Virus record (IMG/VR): IMGVR_UViG_3300010430_006925
Span: 1-24,905 of that record
DNA from: a virus
Direction: 5' to 3' (one strand)
Length of the DNA: 24,905 nt
The notes below the pieces were generated by a model. It was given only the letters and a program-made list of their open reading frames with translations. It was not told where the DNA came from and searched no databases. Both the position numbers and the translations under genes were made by a program. Positions 8,439 through 20,607 of this stretch are shown one piece after another (within the stretch, counting starts at the first letter, position 1; the number at the start of each line of letters is the position of its first letter).

Positions 8439-9208
8439 GCCAAGCCCGCCTCCTTGGTCCATTTCTCAAGGTCGAAGGTGATCTCGTCGTAGACGCGGGA
8501 GTGCTCGGTCTTGAATTTGTCCGCCGGGAACGATGGGCCAGCCACCCATTCGCCCCGCACCGCTCCCTTTTCCAGCCAGTGGCCCGTCATCCACCGCGAC
8601 GGGTCGATACCAAGCGCCTTGAAATGTGCCCGGGTGATTTTCCCATGGGTTTCCACCCAGACGCAGACCTTCATCGCCTTGATCTTCCAAGCCCCCATGA
8701 CCACCGGGGACTTGTCGCCCGCGATCACGTCCGGGACATACTCGGGAAGCTCCAGCCGCTCGATAGGTGCACAATCGAGCCAGCGGTTGTTGTCGCCCCA
8801 GCGTTGCTCCTTCAGAGGCTCAGTCTTCGGGAGTTTAGGGCGGGAGAACCACTTGCAGCCTGTGCGGCTGTTGGAATCGTAGGAACTCACATATTTGCTT
8901 TTGCGCGACACGGTGATGATCGTGATCCCCAGCATCTTTGAGATCCCGACCAGATCGGCGTTCGTGACCTTGCCGACCAGCACCGCGCGGAAGTCTGGGC
9001 CCGGATAGTGGAATTGCGGATGGCTTTCGCAGACCTGGAGAAGCACCTTCGGGTTCAGCACTAGTTTGGCTTCAACCCCGACCTGCGCGCCTGTTTCATG
9101 GACCAGAACCATGTCGAACCCGCCGGTCTCGTTGTAGACCGTCCAGTCCTCAGGAAGCGTTTCAGCGAAGGCCGCGCACAGATCCTTTTCATAATCGAAA
9201 TCCGGCAT
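8435..9208 (-). CDS. putative PD-(D/E)xK nuclease-like protein
   Basis: A 257-aa protein. Its first 60 residues read like the core of a PD-(D/E)xK nuclease: a helix, then NETGGFDMVLV (acidic residue at the end of a strand) and GVEAKL (the E-x-K on the next strand), then a helix. The C-terminal two-thirds contains HGKITRAHFKALGIDPSRW, which may be a DNA-binding helical unit. It sits directly downstream of dnaB in the operon, suiting a replication-linked or repair nuclease. The start at 9208 forms a TGATG overlap with the helicase stop; a TTG at 9220 is an alternative. Assignment by motif only. Confidence 0.55.
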   Translation of the reverse strand: MPDFDYEKDLCAAFAETLPEDWTVYNETGGFDMVLVHETGAQVGVEAKLVLNPKVLLQVCESHPQFHYPGPDFRAVLVGKVTNADLVGISKMLGITIITVSRKSKYVSSYDSNSRTGCKWFSRPKLPKTEPLKEQRWGDNNRWLDCAPIERLELPEYVPDVIAGDKSPVVMGAWKIKAMKVCVWVETHGKITRAHFKALGIDPSRWMTGHWLEKGAVRGEWVAGPSFPADKFKTEHSRVYDEITFDLEKWTKEAGLA

Positions 9209-10602
9209 CAGAACGCCCAACCGTCCTGCTGCTCAGGGATGTCGAAGAAGCGGTTGGTGCCCATGTCACAGGCGACCTTGACCGAACCGATCTCCCCCAT
9301 GCGCGCCTTGCCCACGATGATCTCGGCCATGCCCTTCCAGTGCGCCAGCTCGGCCTCCCAATCGGCGCGTTCTTCTTCCTTTTTCGGTGGGGTTTGGCGG
9401 ACCAGATAGTATTCGGGACGATGGACGAAGAGGACGTTATCAGGGGCATTCTCCAGATCGCCGGAGCCGCGAAGATCCCGCAGCGCGGGTCGGGTATCCT
9501 CCCGCGCACCGATACTGCGATCAATCTGCGCCAGCGCCAGGACATGCACGTCCAGCTGCTTGGCGACCTGCTTCAGATCATTGGCAACCTGCGCCAGCCT
9601 GACATGCGCGCTCTCGCCCCTGCCGCGCACCAGCTGGATATAGTCGATCACCAGAAGCCTGAAGCCTTTGAACTCGCCGTTCGGCACCATCTTGCGCTTC
9701 AGCTTTTTCCCTTCAGACAAAATGGATGGCACGTCGCGCACCCGGTCGGAGAACACCTCAAGCGGCAGGCTCTCCAGTTCCTTGGCCGCCTCAACCACCT
9801 GCCGCCAAGTGTTCTCGCTCATCTTCCGGTCATAGGCCTTGTAGGGCACCATGGAGACCGAGCTATTGATCCGGTTCGCCAGATCCTCTTCGGGCATCTC
9901 CAAGGTGACAAAACCTACACCGTGCCCTGCCCGCGCCGCAGCCGTCGCGATGGATAGCGCCAGCCCTGTCTTGCCCATGGACGTGGCACCGCCAAGAAGC
10001 GTGTACCGCTTGGGGTTCATAGACACGACCTCATCCAATGCGCGGATGCCGGTCGGCACGCCCAGAACCGCGCCCTGCTGTACCTCCTGCATCTGCTCCA
10101 GGGCTAGGCTCTGCGCCTTGAGGAAGGACATCGTGCGCGGCTCCGCCGATGTTTCTTCCCGCTCATGAAGCAGAAGTTCCAGCTCAGCTGCAGCATCATC
10201 GGCACCGCGCCCGTTCTGGAGCTCTCCAGCCAGCTGCTCCAGACGACCGGCCAGCGTCCGACGCCCGTGAAGGTCGACCAGCATTTTCGCGTAGTATTTG
10301 ACCTCCGAACCAGAAACGCTGGCCACGACCATGTTGCTCAGATATCGGCCACCGCCAATTTCCTGAAACCCTTCGTTTGCCGCCATATCGGTCTGCACCG
10401 TGACCGGCGAAACCAGATGATCCCGCGTGATCCGAGCCGCGATGTTCTTCCAGATCAGCCCATGAACCGGATCCCAGAAATGTTCGGGATTCAGCATACT
10501 CGCCACCTCGTGGTAGCGGTCGTTGACGGCCAGCACCGCGCCAAGCACCTGCTGCTCGGCCTCGATCGAATACATGCCGGCGGAAATCTGTTGGTGTTTC
10601 AT
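9208..10602 (-). CDS. dnaB: replicative DNA helicase, DnaB family
   Basis: A 464-aa hexameric replicative helicase, close to the usual DnaB size. It has an N-terminal helical domain (SIEAEQQVLGAVL, residues 12-24, through FWDPVHGLIW). A linker follows, then the RecA-like motor: Walker A GATSMGKT (205-212), EMPEEDLANR, Walker B LLVIDYIQL (316-324), and the arginine-finger/DnaB signature region RDLRGSGDLENAPDNVLF. It unwinds DNA at the fork for phage replication. The start at 10602 overlaps the O-like gene's stop as ATGA and has GGGAGAG upstream. The gene pair matches the O/P or DnaA-like/DnaB order of other phages. Confidence 0.95.
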   Translation of the reverse strand: MKHQQISAGMYSIEAEQQVLGAVLAVNDRYHEVASMLNPEHFWDPVHGLIWKNIAARITRDHLVSPVTVQTDMAANEGFQEIGGGRYLSNMVVASVSGSEVKYYAKMLVDLHGRRTLAGRLEQLAGELQNGRGADDAAAELELLLHEREETSAEPRTMSFLKAQSLALEQMQEVQQGAVLGVPTGIRALDEVVSMNPKRYTLLGGATSMGKTGLALSIATAAARAGHGVGFVTLEMPEEDLANRINSSVSMVPYKAYDRKMSENTWRQVVEAAKELESLPLEVFSDRVRDVPSILSEGKKLKRKMVPNGEFKGFRLLVIDYIQLVRGRGESAHVRLAQVANDLKQVAKQLDVHVLALAQIDRSIGAREDTRPALRDLRGSGDLENAPDNVLFVHRPEYYLVRQTPPKKEEERADWEAELAHWKGMAEIIVGKARMGEIGSVKVACDMGTNRFFDIPEQQDGWAF

Positions 10603-11495
10603 GCTGCTCTCCCGTAGCCAAATTTCTTGAGCCAATACCGGGCCGCCGCGTTCGGCCGGCCGTTGTCATCTGCCATCGAAGGGGGAACCCGACCGTCCCT
10701 GAGCATCGCGTGCTGGTGCCGGGATAGGTCTTCCTCCCGCGGCTCGCCGTTGTCGCTGTCCTCGAATTCGGTCCAGCGATGATCGTTAAGCCAGCCCTGC
10801 GGGTATTTGACATGCGGCCGGAACTCGCCCGGGGCGGCGCTGCTGAGCCATTCGGCATACCGCTCTGCCCCGCTGATGATCCGATCTGGATCCGCGTGCT
10901 TGATCGCCGCCTTCCATGCTTTGAGCGCGTTCGGTTTGCCCGCCTTCTTCGGATAGGCCTTCCAGAACTTCTCGAAGCTCTCTTCGATGCTGTCGGGCTT
11001 CTTGGCCTCGGCACCATCTCCATTTTCTGGAGTTGGCTGACCTGATGCTGAGAAAAGATCTATCGACCCTTCGCGCGCAATGGGTGGTTCATGGGTGGTT
11101 AAAGGGTGGTTTGGGTGCACCGGGTGCACGTCTTGGGGTGCACCTGATGCACCTGACGGGTGCACCTGATGCACGGGTGCACCTGATGCACCCCTATCGT
11201 CACGGGTGCTTGGGAGCTTACGGATACCGTCCAAAATCAGCTTGTACTCGTAGGTGTATCCGTTCTGGCAGGGTCTGGTTCCGATCTTGAGCAACAGTCC
11301 TTCCTGCTCGAAATCTTTGATCACCTTCTGAACAGATCTCTTCCCGAGCTCGGTGTCGGCTGCGATGTGAGATTTACTCGTCCAGATGCCTGAGCCGTCA
11401 TCGCTCGCCCGATCTGCCAGATACATCATCACGGCTTTTCTGGTGGGTGATCCAAGGCGCCTTTTCTGCACCAAAGTTGTGCATTCATTGCTCAT
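10599..11495 (-). CDS. O-like phage replication initiation protein
   Basis: A 298-aa origin-binding protein. Residues 1-90 form a winged helix (SPTRKAVMMYLADRA...KRSVQKVIKDFEQEGLL), typical of phage replication initiators. Residues about 100-150 are a low-complexity Gly/Ala/His/Pro linker. The C-terminal part has FWKAYPKKAGKPNALKAWKA and KYPQGWLNDHRWTEF, the conserved blocks of phage replication proteins that load the helicase. The DNA encoding the linker is an array of direct repeats (11082-11191), as lambda's origin lies within gene O. The start at 11495 has AGAGGAGCG upstream and is coupled to the small HTH gene by ATGA. Confidence 0.8.
   Translation of the reverse strand: MSNECTTLVQKRRLGSPTRKAVMMYLADRASDDGSGIWTSKSHIAADTELGKRSVQKVIKDFEQEGLLLKIGTRPCQNGYTYEYKLILDGIRKLPSTRDDRGASGAPVHQVHPSGASGAPQDVHPVHPNHPLTTHEPPIAREGSIDLFSASGQPTPENGDGAEAKKPDSIEESFEKFWKAYPKKAGKPNALKAWKAAIKHADPDRIISGAERYAEWLSSAAPGEFRPHVKYPQGWLNDHRWTEFEDSDNGEPREEDLSRHQHAMLRDGRVPPSMADDNGRPNAAARYWLKKFGYGRAA
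11082..11111. repeat. GGGTGGTT repeats at exact 11-bp spacing
   Basis: Three perfect GGGTGGTT copies at 11082-11089, 11093-11100 and 11104-11111, each 11 bp after the previous, about one helical turn. They fall in three different codon frames of the replication gene, so the DNA rather than the protein appears to be conserved. They adjoin the 17-bp iterons. Confidence 0.75.
11113..11191. repeat. 17-bp iterons, candidate replication origin
   Basis: Three perfect copies of GGGTGCACCTGATGCAC at 11136-11152, 11158-11174 and 11175-11191, plus two half units GGGTGCAC at 11113-11120 and 11122-11129. Copies are 22 and 17 bp apart. The repeat is translated as GASGAP in one frame and VHQVHP in another, which argues for selection on DNA. 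The position inside the O-like gene matches lambda-type origins. Confidence 0.7.
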
Positions 11496-13618: not shown

Positions 13619-13936
13619 ATGAAAGAAAAATCGAGAATCAAGAAGTTTGCGGACATATCAAATCGCCTGCGCGCGGTCCGAGAGTTCTATGGAATGAAGA
13701 GCAAAGAGTTCGCAGAACAGGCGGACGTCTCGCCTAAATCCTACTCTCAGTGGGAGTCTGGCGACTTTCGAATTTCCATCGATGGAGCGATCAAAATACA
13801 GTCCCGGTACGGGATCTCCCTCGACTTCATATACACCGGAAGGCTGGACACATTGCCCATCAAAATGGCAAGCGCAGTTGCGTCCAGCCCCCTGCTCAAG
13901 AACACCAAAGCATCTACGGTGAACCCGGAAAGCTGA
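13619..13936 (+). CDS. XRE/C1-type repressor
   Basis: A 105-aa Cro/C1-type helix-turn-helix protein: ISNRLRAVREFYGMKSKEFA, then EQADVSPKSYSQWESGDFRIS. A following segment with SLDFIYTGRLDTLP is typical of small alphaproteobacterial XRE proteins. It lacks a long cleavable C-terminal (LexA/CI peptidase) domain, so induction would not be by RecA-driven self-cleavage. It lies next to the left operator and is transcribed away from the leftward operon, the position of a prophage repressor. No clear Shine-Dalgarno; probably leaderless. Confidence 0.75.
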   Translation: MKEKSRIKKFADISNRLRAVREFYGMKSKEFAEQADVSPKSYSQWESGDFRISIDGAIKIQSRYGISLDFIYTGRLDTLPIKMASAVASSPLLKNTKASTVNPES

Positions 13937-14007
13937 GCAGCTTCAATAATCAAATCAATCTGTTCTTCTGTCATGTTCAGTCCCTTCCCCCCCTCTCAAA
14001 ACGAGAC

Positions 14008-14035
14008 ATTGCAACACACGCAATTGTTGTGCAAT
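14008..14035. promoter_or_regulatory. palindrome/promoter before the second regulator
   Basis: ATTGCA (14008-14013) and TGCAAT (14030-14035) are perfect outer arms of an imperfect 28-bp palindrome. TTGCAA (14009-14014), 17 bp, CAATAC (14032-14037) gives a promoter on top of it. Its arms differ from the AATCTA operators, so a different protein, perhaps the 14073 product itself, may bind here. Confidence 0.5.
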
Positions 14036-14048
14036 ACTTTGGAGGTTG

Positions 14049-14072
14049 ATGTACGATTTTTTGGATTTTTGA
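14049..14072 (+). CDS. possible 7-codon leader ORF
   Basis: ATG at 14049 preceded by GGAGG encodes MYDFLDF and stops immediately before the regulator's ATG at 14073. The Shine-Dalgarno gap is only 3 bases, shorter than usual. The 14073 gene has no Shine-Dalgarno of its own, so reinitiation from this tiny ORF is conceivable. Confidence 0.25.
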   Translation: MYDFLDF

Positions 14073-14804
14073 ATGCCGACAGTCCACGACAAGATCAGAC
14101 AGCTCATGCAAGACAGGGGCCTGAACGAGAGGCAGCTGGCCGCGATGGCCGGCATCAAATACACGACCTTCAACAGCGCCCTCAACAACAACCGAAAACT
14201 TTCGTTTGAAACTATCGACGCTATATCTGGCGCCACCGAAGTAGATATCCGCTACTTCTCACGAAACTCACCATCGCTATCGCTCGCCGGGACCGGGGAA
14301 GATCCGGTGCAGAAAAAGGCAATGGAGATCCTGGACAAGGCCCTCCAAACCGCCACCCGAAAGGCCGCATACCACGGCAGCGCCATATCCCTGGAAACAT
14401 TTCTCGATTGGTGGTTTGCAAATAACGGGCGCCTTGAAGGTTTCGGACAGCTATCGCCCTTTGTTGATCTATTCCACAAACCCACCACCGAAACGCTTCA
14501 GATCCAACCACGCAAGACCGCGCCGAACAGCCTGGCAAGTATTTGCTTTGACGTAACCAACCCGGACCAGTTGAAGCAAACGCTCGACGGCTTCAGCGAA
14601 ACCGCCAATCGACAACTGGTTGAGGCACACCTTGAAGCCATCAAGCGAGGCGAGCCAATTCTGACTCACCCACGCCTCGATGAGACCCTGCGCGACGGTT
14701 CCCGCTTCACGCGCACCTACCGCCGCGTCCTGGCGCCAGTGACCCTAGCGGACGGCACGGTCCTCGTCGCCAATTATTCGCAAGACCTTCAACCGGCACC
14801 CTGA
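14073..14804 (+). CDS. HTH regulator with possible PAS-like C-terminal domain
   Basis: A 243-aa protein. Residues 1-60 form an XRE helix-turn-helix (VHDKIRQLMQDRGLNERQLA, AGIKYTTFNSALNNNRKLS). A linker and helix follow (KKAMEILDKALQTATRKAAY). The last 100 residues end in FTRTYRRVLAPVTLADGTVLVANYSQDL, the pattern of alphaproteobacterial PAS-like sensory domains (R-R-x-L-x-P at a strand). It may sense a small molecule or redox signal and control lysogeny or other genes. It converges with a GNAT gene and overlaps it by 16 bp at the 3' ends. The domain call is tentative. Confidence 0.6.
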   Translation: MPTVHDKIRQLMQDRGLNERQLAAMAGIKYTTFNSALNNNRKLSFETIDAISGATEVDIRYFSRNSPSLSLAGTGEDPVQKKAMEILDKALQTATRKAAYHGSAISLETFLDWWFANNGRLEGFGQLSPFVDLFHKPTTETLQIQPRKTAPNSLASICFDVTNPDQLKQTLDGFSETANRQLVEAHLEAIKRGEPILTHPRLDETLRDGSRFTRTYRRVLAPVTLADGTVLVANYSQDLQPAP

Positions 14805-18189: not shown

Positions 18190-18683
18190 TGCGCGGTTTT
18201 GCTTGTGTAGGCCTCTTTCGCCCAAAAACATCCGAGAATGTTGGCGGAGTTCTGCGGGCGGCTCATTGCTATGGTGTTGCCCAAGTCAACATCCATGGCG
18301 CCCGTGGCAAGGCCTTGTCTCACCAGTGCAATACGACAATGGCTCATCGGCACATCCCAACCTTCATTGTCGATGACGTGCTCCAGTACGTCCCATACGA
18401 CTGTCAGGTTGTGGCTGTGGATCTGTGCGATGGAGCAGAACCTCTTACTAGTTTCCAACACCCGCAGCGCGCCATGTACGTGTTCGGCCCAGAGGATGGC
18501 ACGCTAGGAAAGCGGCACACCGACCGCGCGCAGCATACCGTTTTCATTCCCACAAGGGGTTGCATGAACTTGGCCGCCGCAGTGAATGTGGTTCTCTATG
18601 ACCGCTTGCTGAAATCAGGCCGGTTCGATGCCCCCTATGAGCGTCACGCCAGCAGTGATCAATACGTGAGGGGGGCAGAATGA
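18189..18683 (+). CDS. SpoU/TrmH-like RNA 2'-O-methyltransferase
   Basis: A 164-aa SPOUT-family protein. It shows the three SpoU motifs in order: ENVGGVLRAAHCYGV (motif 1, N17 and R23), AMYVFGPEDGTLGKR (motif 2, E102), and FIPTRGCMNLAAAVNVVLYD (motif 3, N127, with Cys where Ser is usual). It therefore likely methylates a ribose 2'-O in tRNA or rRNA. The length equals a minimal SPOUT domain, as in TrmL. The ATG at 18189 overlaps the preceding stop. Such a gene is not a usual part of a phage recombination operon and may help maintain translation in infected cells. Confidence 0.8.
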   Translation: MRGFACVGLFRPKTSENVGGVLRAAHCYGVAQVNIHGARGKALSHQCNTTMAHRHIPTFIVDDVLQYVPYDCQVVAVDLCDGAEPLTSFQHPQRAMYVFGPEDGTLGKRHTDRAQHTVFIPTRGCMNLAAAVNVVLYDRLLKSGRFDAPYERHASSDQYVRGAE

Positions 18684-19648
18684 CCCCCGAGATCCGCACC
18701 CTTGCCCCCGGCGAGAAGATCTCGGAACCGGGTTTCTACAACATCTCGCTTGATGTGCATCACAGCCAGTGCTGCGACGAGTTCTGCGTGACGAGCGGCG
18801 TCCTGCGCCGGATGCAGATCGACACCCCAGGCGATGTCTGGGCGTTCCATGACGATAACCCGGAACGCTGGGAGCGGGAGGAGACGGACGCGCTGCGCCT
18901 TGGCCGCGCCATGGCGGCTTTTGTCGAAGGCGGGGTCGAGGAGGTGGAAAAGCACTTCTACGTGCTGCCCGACAGCCGCCCGCAGCGGCCCACACGGCAG
19001 CAGCTTAACGCGATCAAGGAGGGTCGTGGCTCCAAGTCAGCGATGGCCTCTCTCGCGTTCTGGCGGGAGGCGGACACGGATCCTCGTGAACATATCACTG
19101 AACACCAGATGAACCTGATCTGTGACATGGGCCGCGCCCTGGCCAAAGACCCGATGGCGGCCGCGCTTTTGGGCGGGATCCCCGAGGTCACGATGGCATG
19201 GAAGGACGAGCACACCGGTATCTGGTGCCTGTCCCGGCCCGACCAGATCTCATTCGATGGGTATGCCGGCGATTACAAGAAAATCAGCCCCCAAGGCGCG
19301 ACCTTCGATCATGCGCTCTGCTACCGCGCGATCAAGAAGCATCGGTATGACATGCAGATGAGCTTCGCCCATGAGGGGTTTGAGCAGCTGACCGGAAATC
19401 AGCCGCAGGCAGTTGGCCTGATCTTCCAGTCCGACCGGCGCCCGCACTTCTGCATCCCGGTCGAGATCCCTGAGGAAGAGATCGAATTTGGCCGCTTCTA
19501 CAACCACCGGAGCCTCTGGCGGATCAAGGAATGCTTGGACAGCGGCCATTGGCCTGAGCCCGGCGAACATCCCGGCATCTTCCATTGGTCCGACGAAGAG
19601 CGCGAACGGATCCTTGAAGAAATGAATATGGAAGGCACAGCCCCATGA
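18680..19648 (+). CDS. RecE-like PD-(D/E)xK exonuclease
   Basis: A 322-aa nuclease of the RecE/DUF3799-like PD-(D/E)xK type. ALRLGRAMAAFVEGG (residues 71-85) matches the helix before the core. GIPEVTMAW supplies the first acidic strand. LSRPDQISFDGYAGDYKKI (residues 185-202) gives the R-P-D and D-x-K catalytic pair. It would digest dsDNA 5' to 3' and hand 3' tails to the RecT-like annealer encoded next. Both junctions are ATGA. MTPEIRTLAPG at the N-terminus has no evident signal. Confidence 0.85.
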   Translation: MTPEIRTLAPGEKISEPGFYNISLDVHHSQCCDEFCVTSGVLRRMQIDTPGDVWAFHDDNPERWEREETDALRLGRAMAAFVEGGVEEVEKHFYVLPDSRPQRPTRQQLNAIKEGRGSKSAMASLAFWREADTDPREHITEHQMNLICDMGRALAKDPMAAALLGGIPEVTMAWKDEHTGIWCLSRPDQISFDGYAGDYKKISPQGATFDHALCYRAIKKHRYDMQMSFAHEGFEQLTGNQPQAVGLIFQSDRRPHFCIPVEIPEEEIEFGRFYNHRSLWRIKECLDSGHWPEPGEHPGIFHWSDEERERILEEMNMEGTAP

Positions 19649-20607
19649 GCAAAGAAGTACAGCCATTCCAGGAAGCGGCGCCAGCCACTATCGCCAATGC
19701 AGGAATGCAGTCCGGTGGCGCAATCGCATCCCTGGTCCCTCAGAACCTTGAAGACGCCTTTCGCCTGTCAAAGGCATTGTCCTCGGCGGGCGATATGGTT
19801 CCTGAGAGCTTCCGCGGAAATCCAGAAGCGACTATGGCCGCCATTATCCGCGGTATGGAGATCGGACTGGCGCCGATGCAGGCGCTTTCCAATATTGCCG
19901 TCATCAATGGCCGTGCCTCACTCTGGGGCGATTCCATCCCCGCCCTAATGCAGCGATCCGGCCACCATATCGACGTGGTAATTGAGGGCGAAGGCGACGC
20001 CATGAAGGCGGTCGCTACGCTGGAGCGCGGCGACACCGGAAAACGCTATGTCCGGGAATTCTCTGTTGCTGACGCCAAGGCTGCAAACCTATGGGGCAAA
20101 AAAGGCCCTTGGCAGACCTATCCCAAGCGGATGCTGACCCATAGGGCGCGCTCTTGGGCAGTGCGGGACGGCGCGGCCGACGCGCTGATGGGCCTTCAGA
20201 TTGCAGAAGAAATGCAGGATGTCCCTCCTCCCCGCGATGTGACGCCGCGCGAGGCCAAGCCCGGCGGTTTTGCAGCCCGTGCGCAGGCCGCCCGCCAGCA
20301 AGCGGAACCGGAAGACGCACAGGTCCCCACAGACGCGGCAGAGGACCCCACCTCTGACGAACAGCACACCGACACCCTCGACGGCGAAGTCCTCCCCAAC
20401 GCCGACGAGGATGCCGCCCCTGATGAGCAGCAGGGCCACGGCAGCACCGAACAGACCGAGGCCTACTTGGCTGGTGCTGCCGCATTTGGCGACGGCTTCG
20501 GATCCGGTGATTGCCCGCACAAAGAGGACGGTCCCGATAACACGGATTGGCTGCGCGGCTGGAACGATGCCTACAACGCGGCCGATCAGGAAGGCGGTGA
20601 CGCATGA
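19645..20607 (+). CDS. recT: RecT-like ssDNA-annealing protein with Rmf-like tail
   Basis: A 320-aa recombinase. Residues 20-190 match the RecT annealing domain: EDAFRLSKALSSAGDMVPESFRG, AAIIRGMEIGLAPMQALSNI and WQTYPKRMLTHRARSWAVRDG. Residues 190-265 are a disordered acidic Glu/Asp/Pro/Thr linker. The last 50 residues (AYLAGAAAFGDGFGSGDCPH and WLRGWNDAYNAA) resemble a ribosome modulation factor-like element. The annealer would pair ssDNA made by the RecE-like nuclease. The tail is an extra module beyond the usual ~270-residue protein. Confidence 0.85.
   Translation: MSKEVQPFQEAAPATIANAGMQSGGAIASLVPQNLEDAFRLSKALSSAGDMVPESFRGNPEATMAAIIRGMEIGLAPMQALSNIAVINGRASLWGDSIPALMQRSGHHIDVVIEGEGDAMKAVATLERGDTGKRYVREFSVADAKAANLWGKKGPWQTYPKRMLTHRARSWAVRDGAADALMGLQIAEEMQDVPPPRDVTPREAKPGGFAARAQAARQQAEPEDAQVPTDAAEDPTSDEQHTDTLDGEVLPNADEDAAPDEQQGHGSTEQTEAYLAGAAAFGDGFGSGDCPHKEDGPDNTDWLRGWNDAYNAADQEGGDA

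Follow-up and report, generated by a model that had tools for sequence, protein, structure and literature searches.

A probable lambda/P22-type replication origin inside the initiator gene of a phage from IMG/VR

Positions 11,070–11,192 of the window (the whole stretch of DNA analyzed, an IMG/VR virus record of 24,905 bp) very probably constitute a replication origin of the lambda/P22 type inside its own initiator gene. The analysis showed the anatomy of this segment, the conservation of its DNA pattern, the association of its iterons with O-like genes, and the covariation of the iteron arms with an arginine of the initiator's recognition helix. The initial annotation had proposed a lambda-type origin within the initiator gene, and this is still the best reading in view of the anatomy, the relatives, a blind scan, and the likeness to lambda and P22. 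No match to the window at the DNA level was found in the phage or plasmid collections searched.

The O-like replication initiator gene (10,599–11,495, minus strand) encodes a protein of 298 amino acids. In Pfam, HTH_36 (PF13730) was matched at residues 16–68 (4.4e-8), and the PHROG family phrog_270, "replication initiation protein," covered most of the protein (residues 8–283, E = 1.8e-46). The lambda O family (PF04492, Phage_rep_O), which lambda O itself matches at 5.7e-36, showed no match to the window initiator, and no Rep family of the Rep_3 or TrfA kinds, as found in iteron plasmid replicons, was among its Pfam matches. In the AlphaFold2 model (mean pLDDT 73), a confident winged helix (residues 1–92) is followed by a disordered linker (about 100–167, pLDDT mostly below 50) and a helical C-terminal part (170–292). 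Codons 102–138, within this linker, hold all of the iterons and boxes described below. The profiles and the model together describe an N-terminal DNA-binding domain, a flexible linker over the origin, and a C-terminal domain. No solved structure matched the initiator by sequence, and a fold search returned generic winged helices only, none at E ≤ 0.001. The nearest named relatives of the initiator include a Paracoccus replicon. Just past the linker (11,046–11,066, minus strand), the protein carries SIDLFSA, with DLFSA, DLFAG, or DLFHK at the same position in relatives L286–L290, a segment resembling motifs of the sliding-clamp-binding type.

Directly downstream lies a DnaB-type replicative helicase gene (9208–10,635, minus strand; PF03796, 1.1e-53; PF00772, 4e-22; phrog_19, 1.8e-75), whose listed ORF overlaps the 3′ end of the initiator gene and whose product is the presumed client of the initiator. 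A RuvC-like gene precedes the initiator gene. Elsewhere in the window, two Cro/CI-type HTH genes stand in succession at 13,619–14,804 (plus strand), divergent from the replication operon, and an Exonuclease VIII-like PDDEXK protein is followed by a RecT-like annealing protein at 18,680–20,607 (plus strand), a phage recombination pair.

On the coding (minus) strand, the linker repeats parse as four 17-bp dyads of the form GGTGCA-N5-TGCACC, in which 6-bp arms (GGTGCA and TGCACC) flank a 5-bp spacer. Iteron 1 (GGTGCATCAGGTGCACC, 11,176–11,192, codon frame 0) abuts iteron 2 (CGTGCATCAGGTGCACC, 11,159–11,175, frame 2), and these are followed by iteron 3 (GGTGCATCAGGTGCACC, 11,137–11,153, frame 0) and iteron 4 (CGTGCACCCGGTGCACC, 11,114–11,130, frame 2), all on the minus strand, with starts 17, 22, and 23 bp apart. 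The coding strand thus reads GGTGCATCAGGTGCACC, CGTGCATCAGGTGCACC, cgtca, GGTGCATCAGGTGCACC, ccaaga, CGTGCACCCGGTGCACC, and ca, and then enters the boxes. The earlier description of three perfect 17-bp units was borne out, GGGTGCACCTGATGCAC being found on the plus strand at 11,136, 11,158, and 11,175, whereas the accompanying "two half units" proved to be a fourth dyad with the spacer CCCGG in place of TCAGG. GTGCA-N5-TGCAC was found nowhere else in the 24.9 kb, and its four occurrences compare with a mean of 0.15 and a maximum of 2 in 5000 synonymous-codon shuffles encoding the same protein.

Past iteron 4, three copies of AACCACCC follow on the minus strand at 11-bp steps: box 1 (11,104–11,111, frame 0), which starts 2 nt after the iteron, box 2 (11,093–11,100, frame 2), and box 3 (11,082–11,089, frame 1). 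The coding strand reads AACCACCC ttt AACCACCC atg AACCACCC, and the plus-strand form GGGTGGTT stands at 11,082, 11,093, and 11,104, so that the exact 11-bp step noted at the outset was confirmed. AACCACCC occurs in the window only as these three boxes. The AACCACC count (3 versus a synonymous-shuffle mean of 0.45 and maximum of 3) was less extreme than that of the iterons, and phased AACC pairs in the window gave p = 0.03 by shuffling. Gene by gene, the codon-shuffle test of the boxes was weak (p about 0.01–0.5), as much of AACC is already fixed by the protein sequence. The boxes lie in a 44-nt stretch (11,070–11,113, minus strand; A14 C19 G5 T6 on the coding strand), the presumed unwinding element, which is A/C-rich and G-poor but only 45% A+T compared with 41% for the window. 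At 20–70 nt past the last iteron, only GCGCGCG and no strong stem was present, and a downstream hairpin element is weak or missing in the window. A G-quadruplex in the GGGTGGTT strand was considered and dropped, as the SfV-type boxes (TGACTGGTTC) have no G runs.

The repeats are read in different codon frames (iterons 0, 2, 0, 2; boxes 0, 2, 1), and the translations GASGAP and VHQVHP, from which the initial annotation had argued that the DNA is what is kept, were correct. The mixed frames alone do not prove this, because they also arise when a unit whose length is not a multiple of three is simply duplicated in tandem; the four iterons of lambda are likewise read in frames 0, 2, 2, and 1, which makes mixed frames an ordinary feature. 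The claim itself was upheld by the codons of relatives, as described below. We also considered that selection acts on the protein linker, with H/P/G-rich motifs touching a partner and the DNA repeats following from that. Peptides of the NHP..T..EPP type do recur in the clade, but one DNA repeat is read in different frames, synonymous sites are conserved, and 12-bp steps in SfV and L289 give EPVKEPVNEP or EPSIEPSIEPS, keeping the box DNA and not the peptide. This explanation is thus very improbable.

To compare relatives for the repeats, as the initial annotation had suggested, three initiators (L286, L287, and L288; 57, 51, and 46% identical) were gathered by protein and not by repeats. Their iterons stand at gene nucleotides 303/320/342/365 in frames 0, 2, 0, 2, with the layout unchanged, and their boxes keep the 11-bp steps of the window. 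The iteron letters change in step, in all copies and in both frames, and where the window has TCAGG as spacer, L286 has GGAGG and the L120/L087 group GGARA. At positions where a pair of proteins shares the amino acid, the same codon was used at 121 of 139 positions (87%) in the origin versus 185 of 413 (45%) in the winged helix, counts pooled over non-independent pairs among the four proteins; single pairs gave p = 2e-5 (window/L286) and 5e-9 (L287/L288). This holds although, as protein, the origin part is not the better conserved of the two (53–72% identity versus 66–81% for the winged helix). The kept layout, together with synonymous conservation above that of the winged-helix part, shows selection on the origin at the DNA level, and the relatives show that the DNA pattern, more than the encoded protein, has been kept by evolution.

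These comparisons also bear on whether replication slippage simply left the repeats behind in a tolerant disordered linker, neither the DNA nor the peptide sequence mattering. In favor of slippage, the linker is disordered in the model, and low-complexity G/A/P linkers occur in many relatives. However, layout, frames, and synonymous codons are kept across 46–57% protein identity, changes of the arms affect every copy and follow the recognition helix, and the spacing follows helical turns. The window and its close relative L001 differ by 0 changes in the origin versus 2.7 expected, but this gives only p = 0.05 alone, and the comparison was set aside as a conservation test since the pair is too close. 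On the codon comparison of relatives, slippage is already largely refuted, and we consider it a most unlikely explanation.

To examine the class more widely, IMG/VR was scanned blind for two tandem GGTGCA-N5-TGCACC dyads within 30 bp, which returned at least 120 stretches. O-like ORFs were called with an iterated HMM, whose first round, built on four seed proteins, matched 111 candidate ORFs; an alignment built from 18 initiators proved too heterogeneous for scanning a collection. Among the matches listed, the array lay inside an O-like ORF in 113 of 120 stretches (94%), although such ORFs account for 8% of the sequence in those loci. Iterons of this class therefore mark O-like initiators strongly. 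Iteron steps were measured across about 75 genes, from a non-redundant set of 80 of which most carry iterons; from start to start, they piled up at 21–24, then at 31–33 and 42–46 bp, and steps of at least 25 bp were phased at 10.5–11.5 bp (p about 1e-4). Multiples of three were not preferred within the 21–24 bp steps (75/153). The helical phasing indicates that the iterons tend to lie on one helix face, as expected for an O-some.

The arms were then related to the recognition helix (KRSVQ in the window, with Arg53) in 25 initiators collected on the basis of protein similarity. Iterons of the GGTG[AC]A type were present in 15 of the 16 initiators with Arg at the Arg53 position and in none of the 9 without it, a count that ignores common descent. 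In the pattern-selected set, Arg stood at this position in 63 of 65. Relatives without Arg53 carry the arms GGTC[AC]A (L290), AGTCC (L295), and GGGTCC (L275). In L290, the recognition helix reads SKQTVL. This association fits direct readout of the arms by the initiator's own winged helix. L275 is the Paracoccus denitrificans replicon NZ_CP141053 (444,513–449,794), whose GGGTCC-N5-GGACCC dyads and AACCATCC boxes are unannotated in the plasmid record; its initiator and dyads are probably a prophage origin.

In the class as a whole, the 0–40 nt past the last iteron are A-rich (0.34–0.41) and G-poor (0.13–0.19) on the coding strand, with an A+T content of 0.54–0.61 versus 0.44–0.51 further on and with autocorrelation at 11 and 12 nt. 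Of 59 genes selected by their iterons, 18 have AACC boxes that start 2–3 nt past the last iteron. An AACC pair phased at 10–13 bp lies within 55 nt past the last iteron in 22 of the 59, compared with 0.7 after shuffling, and in only one of them in the next 55 nt. The AACC core and its phasing are kept in relatives lacking GGTG arms (L290, L275, and L295); L296 has AACC-cored boxes at 10-nt steps, and the boxes of enterobacterial and Vibrio phages read GAACCAGTCA. A class-wide hairpin excess was observed at +20 to +70 nt past the last iteron (mean z about −1.2 over 68 genes) and was absent at 0–40 and beyond 50 nt. Lambda and P22 both have a palindrome or hairpin past the unwinding region, although it is not known to be required.

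The initial annotation had counted two iteron families. The 17-bp dyads were confirmed, but the AACCACCC boxes are probably not a second family. In a variant of the origin model, otherwise unchanged, the winged helix that binds the iterons would bind the boxes as well; in favor of this, the boxes come directly after the iterons, their 11-bp steps place them on one helix face, and CACC is present in both the half-site and the box of the window phage. However, the boxes have no dyad and stay AACC-cored at 11–12 bp steps in relatives with the arms GGTGAA, GGTC[AC]A, GGGTCC, and AGTCC and with other recognition helices, and the enterobacterial boxes read GAACCAGTCA while the iterons there are GTGCA-N5-TKCAC. 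We therefore regard a second site set as unlikely. Because the boxes are kept when the iteron arms and the recognition helix change, they are probably, judging from these comparisons, an unwinding or loading element rather than a winged-helix site.

Similar arrays were also encountered elsewhere. L291 (39% protein identity) has five iterons and, following them at about 2930–2974, four AACCATCC boxes spaced exactly 11 bp apart. Exact 11-bp AACCACC arrays occur in other phage replication genes beyond HTH_36 initiators: 6 of 7 further carriers scanned match primosomal, DnaD-like, or replication-initiation families, the array being antisense in three of the six (L176, L252, and L261) and sense in L205, L225, and L266. 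The families of these six carriers include DUF1376/primosomal, DnaD-like, and other replication genes. The AACCACC triple array was rejected as a stand-alone marker, being too unspecific; among 120 matches, 101 had other steps and 19 exactly 11 bp, the former being largely 12-bp repeats in unrelated proteins.

The arrangement was compared with known systems. The lambda origin, which is proven, consists of four 19-bp imperfect inverted repeats and an A+T-rich tract in gene O (PMC7466680), and P22, L, and lambda each have their own iterons within the O-like gene, which in P22 and L is followed by a DnaB-type helicase gene (PMC8022706). In NC_001416, the lambda iterons read TCCCTC-AAAAC-GAGGGA, so that lambda and the window share four iterons with 6-bp arms and a 5-bp spacer, at comparable steps (20/24/23 in lambda and 17/22/23 in the window). 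The stretch directly after them is the opening region in lambda and presumably also in the window. They differ in arm sequence and in N-terminal family (PF04492 versus PF13730); lambda also has an imperfect palindrome, ATTCGTCAGAGAATTCTGGCGAAT, beyond the opening region and employs the loader P with host DnaB, whereas the window encodes its own DnaB-type gene. P22 (NC_002371), like L, resembles the window in having iterons in the O-like gene (gene 18 in P22), an A/C-rich stretch after them, and its own DnaB gene (gene 12) directly downstream; its annotated origin comprises iterons, an A-rich stretch, and a hairpin within gene 18. The P22 iterons are of the GGTAAA type and those of the window of the GGTGCA type, P22 carries ACAAAAGACAATA repeats where the window carries phased AACCACCC boxes, and the strong CCCCC...GGGGG hairpin that ends the P22 origin (CCCCCTTACCCCCTAAAGGGGG) is weak in the window. 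By gene order the window is closest to P22, and P22 gene 18 with its DnaB gene is the best analogue.

The replication proteins of the SfV, mEp460, and ST64B type and of Pseudomonas phage AV001 have a related HTH domain, and their GTGCA-N5-TKCAC iterons are followed by GAACCA boxes, as in the window. The enterobacterial members differ in their mostly in-frame iteron steps (21 and 24) and 12-bp box steps, and the genes downstream also differ (dam in SfV and a DnaC-like loader in PhiR49_2).

Winged-helix proteins often autoregulate. The repeats might accordingly be not a replication start but operators for repression of the initiator's operon, whether by the initiator itself or by a different regulator; bound iterons within a gene could perhaps block RNA polymerase. 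However, the promoter scan found no promoter-like site in the initiator gene, the iterons sit mid-gene, over 300 nt past its start, and the equivalent sites are proven origin DNA in lambda (PMC7466680) and annotated as the origin in P22. An operator function in place of an origin is thus hardly likely. A GC-skew analysis showed no turning point at the origin site, and an Rfam scan found nothing.

From the origin reading, we infer binding, opening, helicase loading, and a role of the boxes as an opening/loading element. The O-like winged helix would bind, as dimers, the four 17-bp dyads, about two helical turns apart, and the bound iterons would be wrapped into an O-some. This would put strain on the neighboring A/C-rich stretch, in which the AACCACCC boxes start 2 nt past the last iteron; the stretch would open, one of its strands would be held, and the DnaB encoded by the adjacent phage gene would be loaded. 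At RK2 oriV, the unwinding-element 13-mers are bound as single strands by TrfA in a strand-specific manner (PMC4081077). RK2 resembles the window in having short repeats near the initiator iterons, and strand-specific recognition of the boxes is proposed by this analogy, which is functional only, as RK2 differs in having a plasmid Rep and 13-mers.

We tentatively propose, at slightly less than an even chance, that origins of this class consist of two separately evolving parts: dyad iterons that change together with the recognition helix, and phased AACC boxes (11–12 bp steps, typically 2–3 nt past the last iteron) that are kept across differing arms. In this view, the boxes would signal opening or helicase loading in a strand-specific way, would be recognized by a factor different from the winged helix, and would be a phage counterpart of the 13-mers of oriC and RK2. 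Searches of the open-access literature turned up no account of the GGTGCA-N5-TGCACC class or the phased boxes, which is weak evidence of novelty since older subscription papers lie outside it. Origins of the lambda/P22 type are already known in kind, and the separately conserved phased box array could be a new part.

The origin, initiator, and helicase together form a compact module of about 2.3 kb in a phage of uncharted kin. The class has a readable code, in which a recognition-helix arginine goes with GGTG-type arms, and because the iteron pattern alone finds O-like genes, origins of uncultured phages are predictable by pattern search. If phased AACC boxes are indeed a general opening or loading signal, their recognition in lambda-type unwinding regions would be directly testable.
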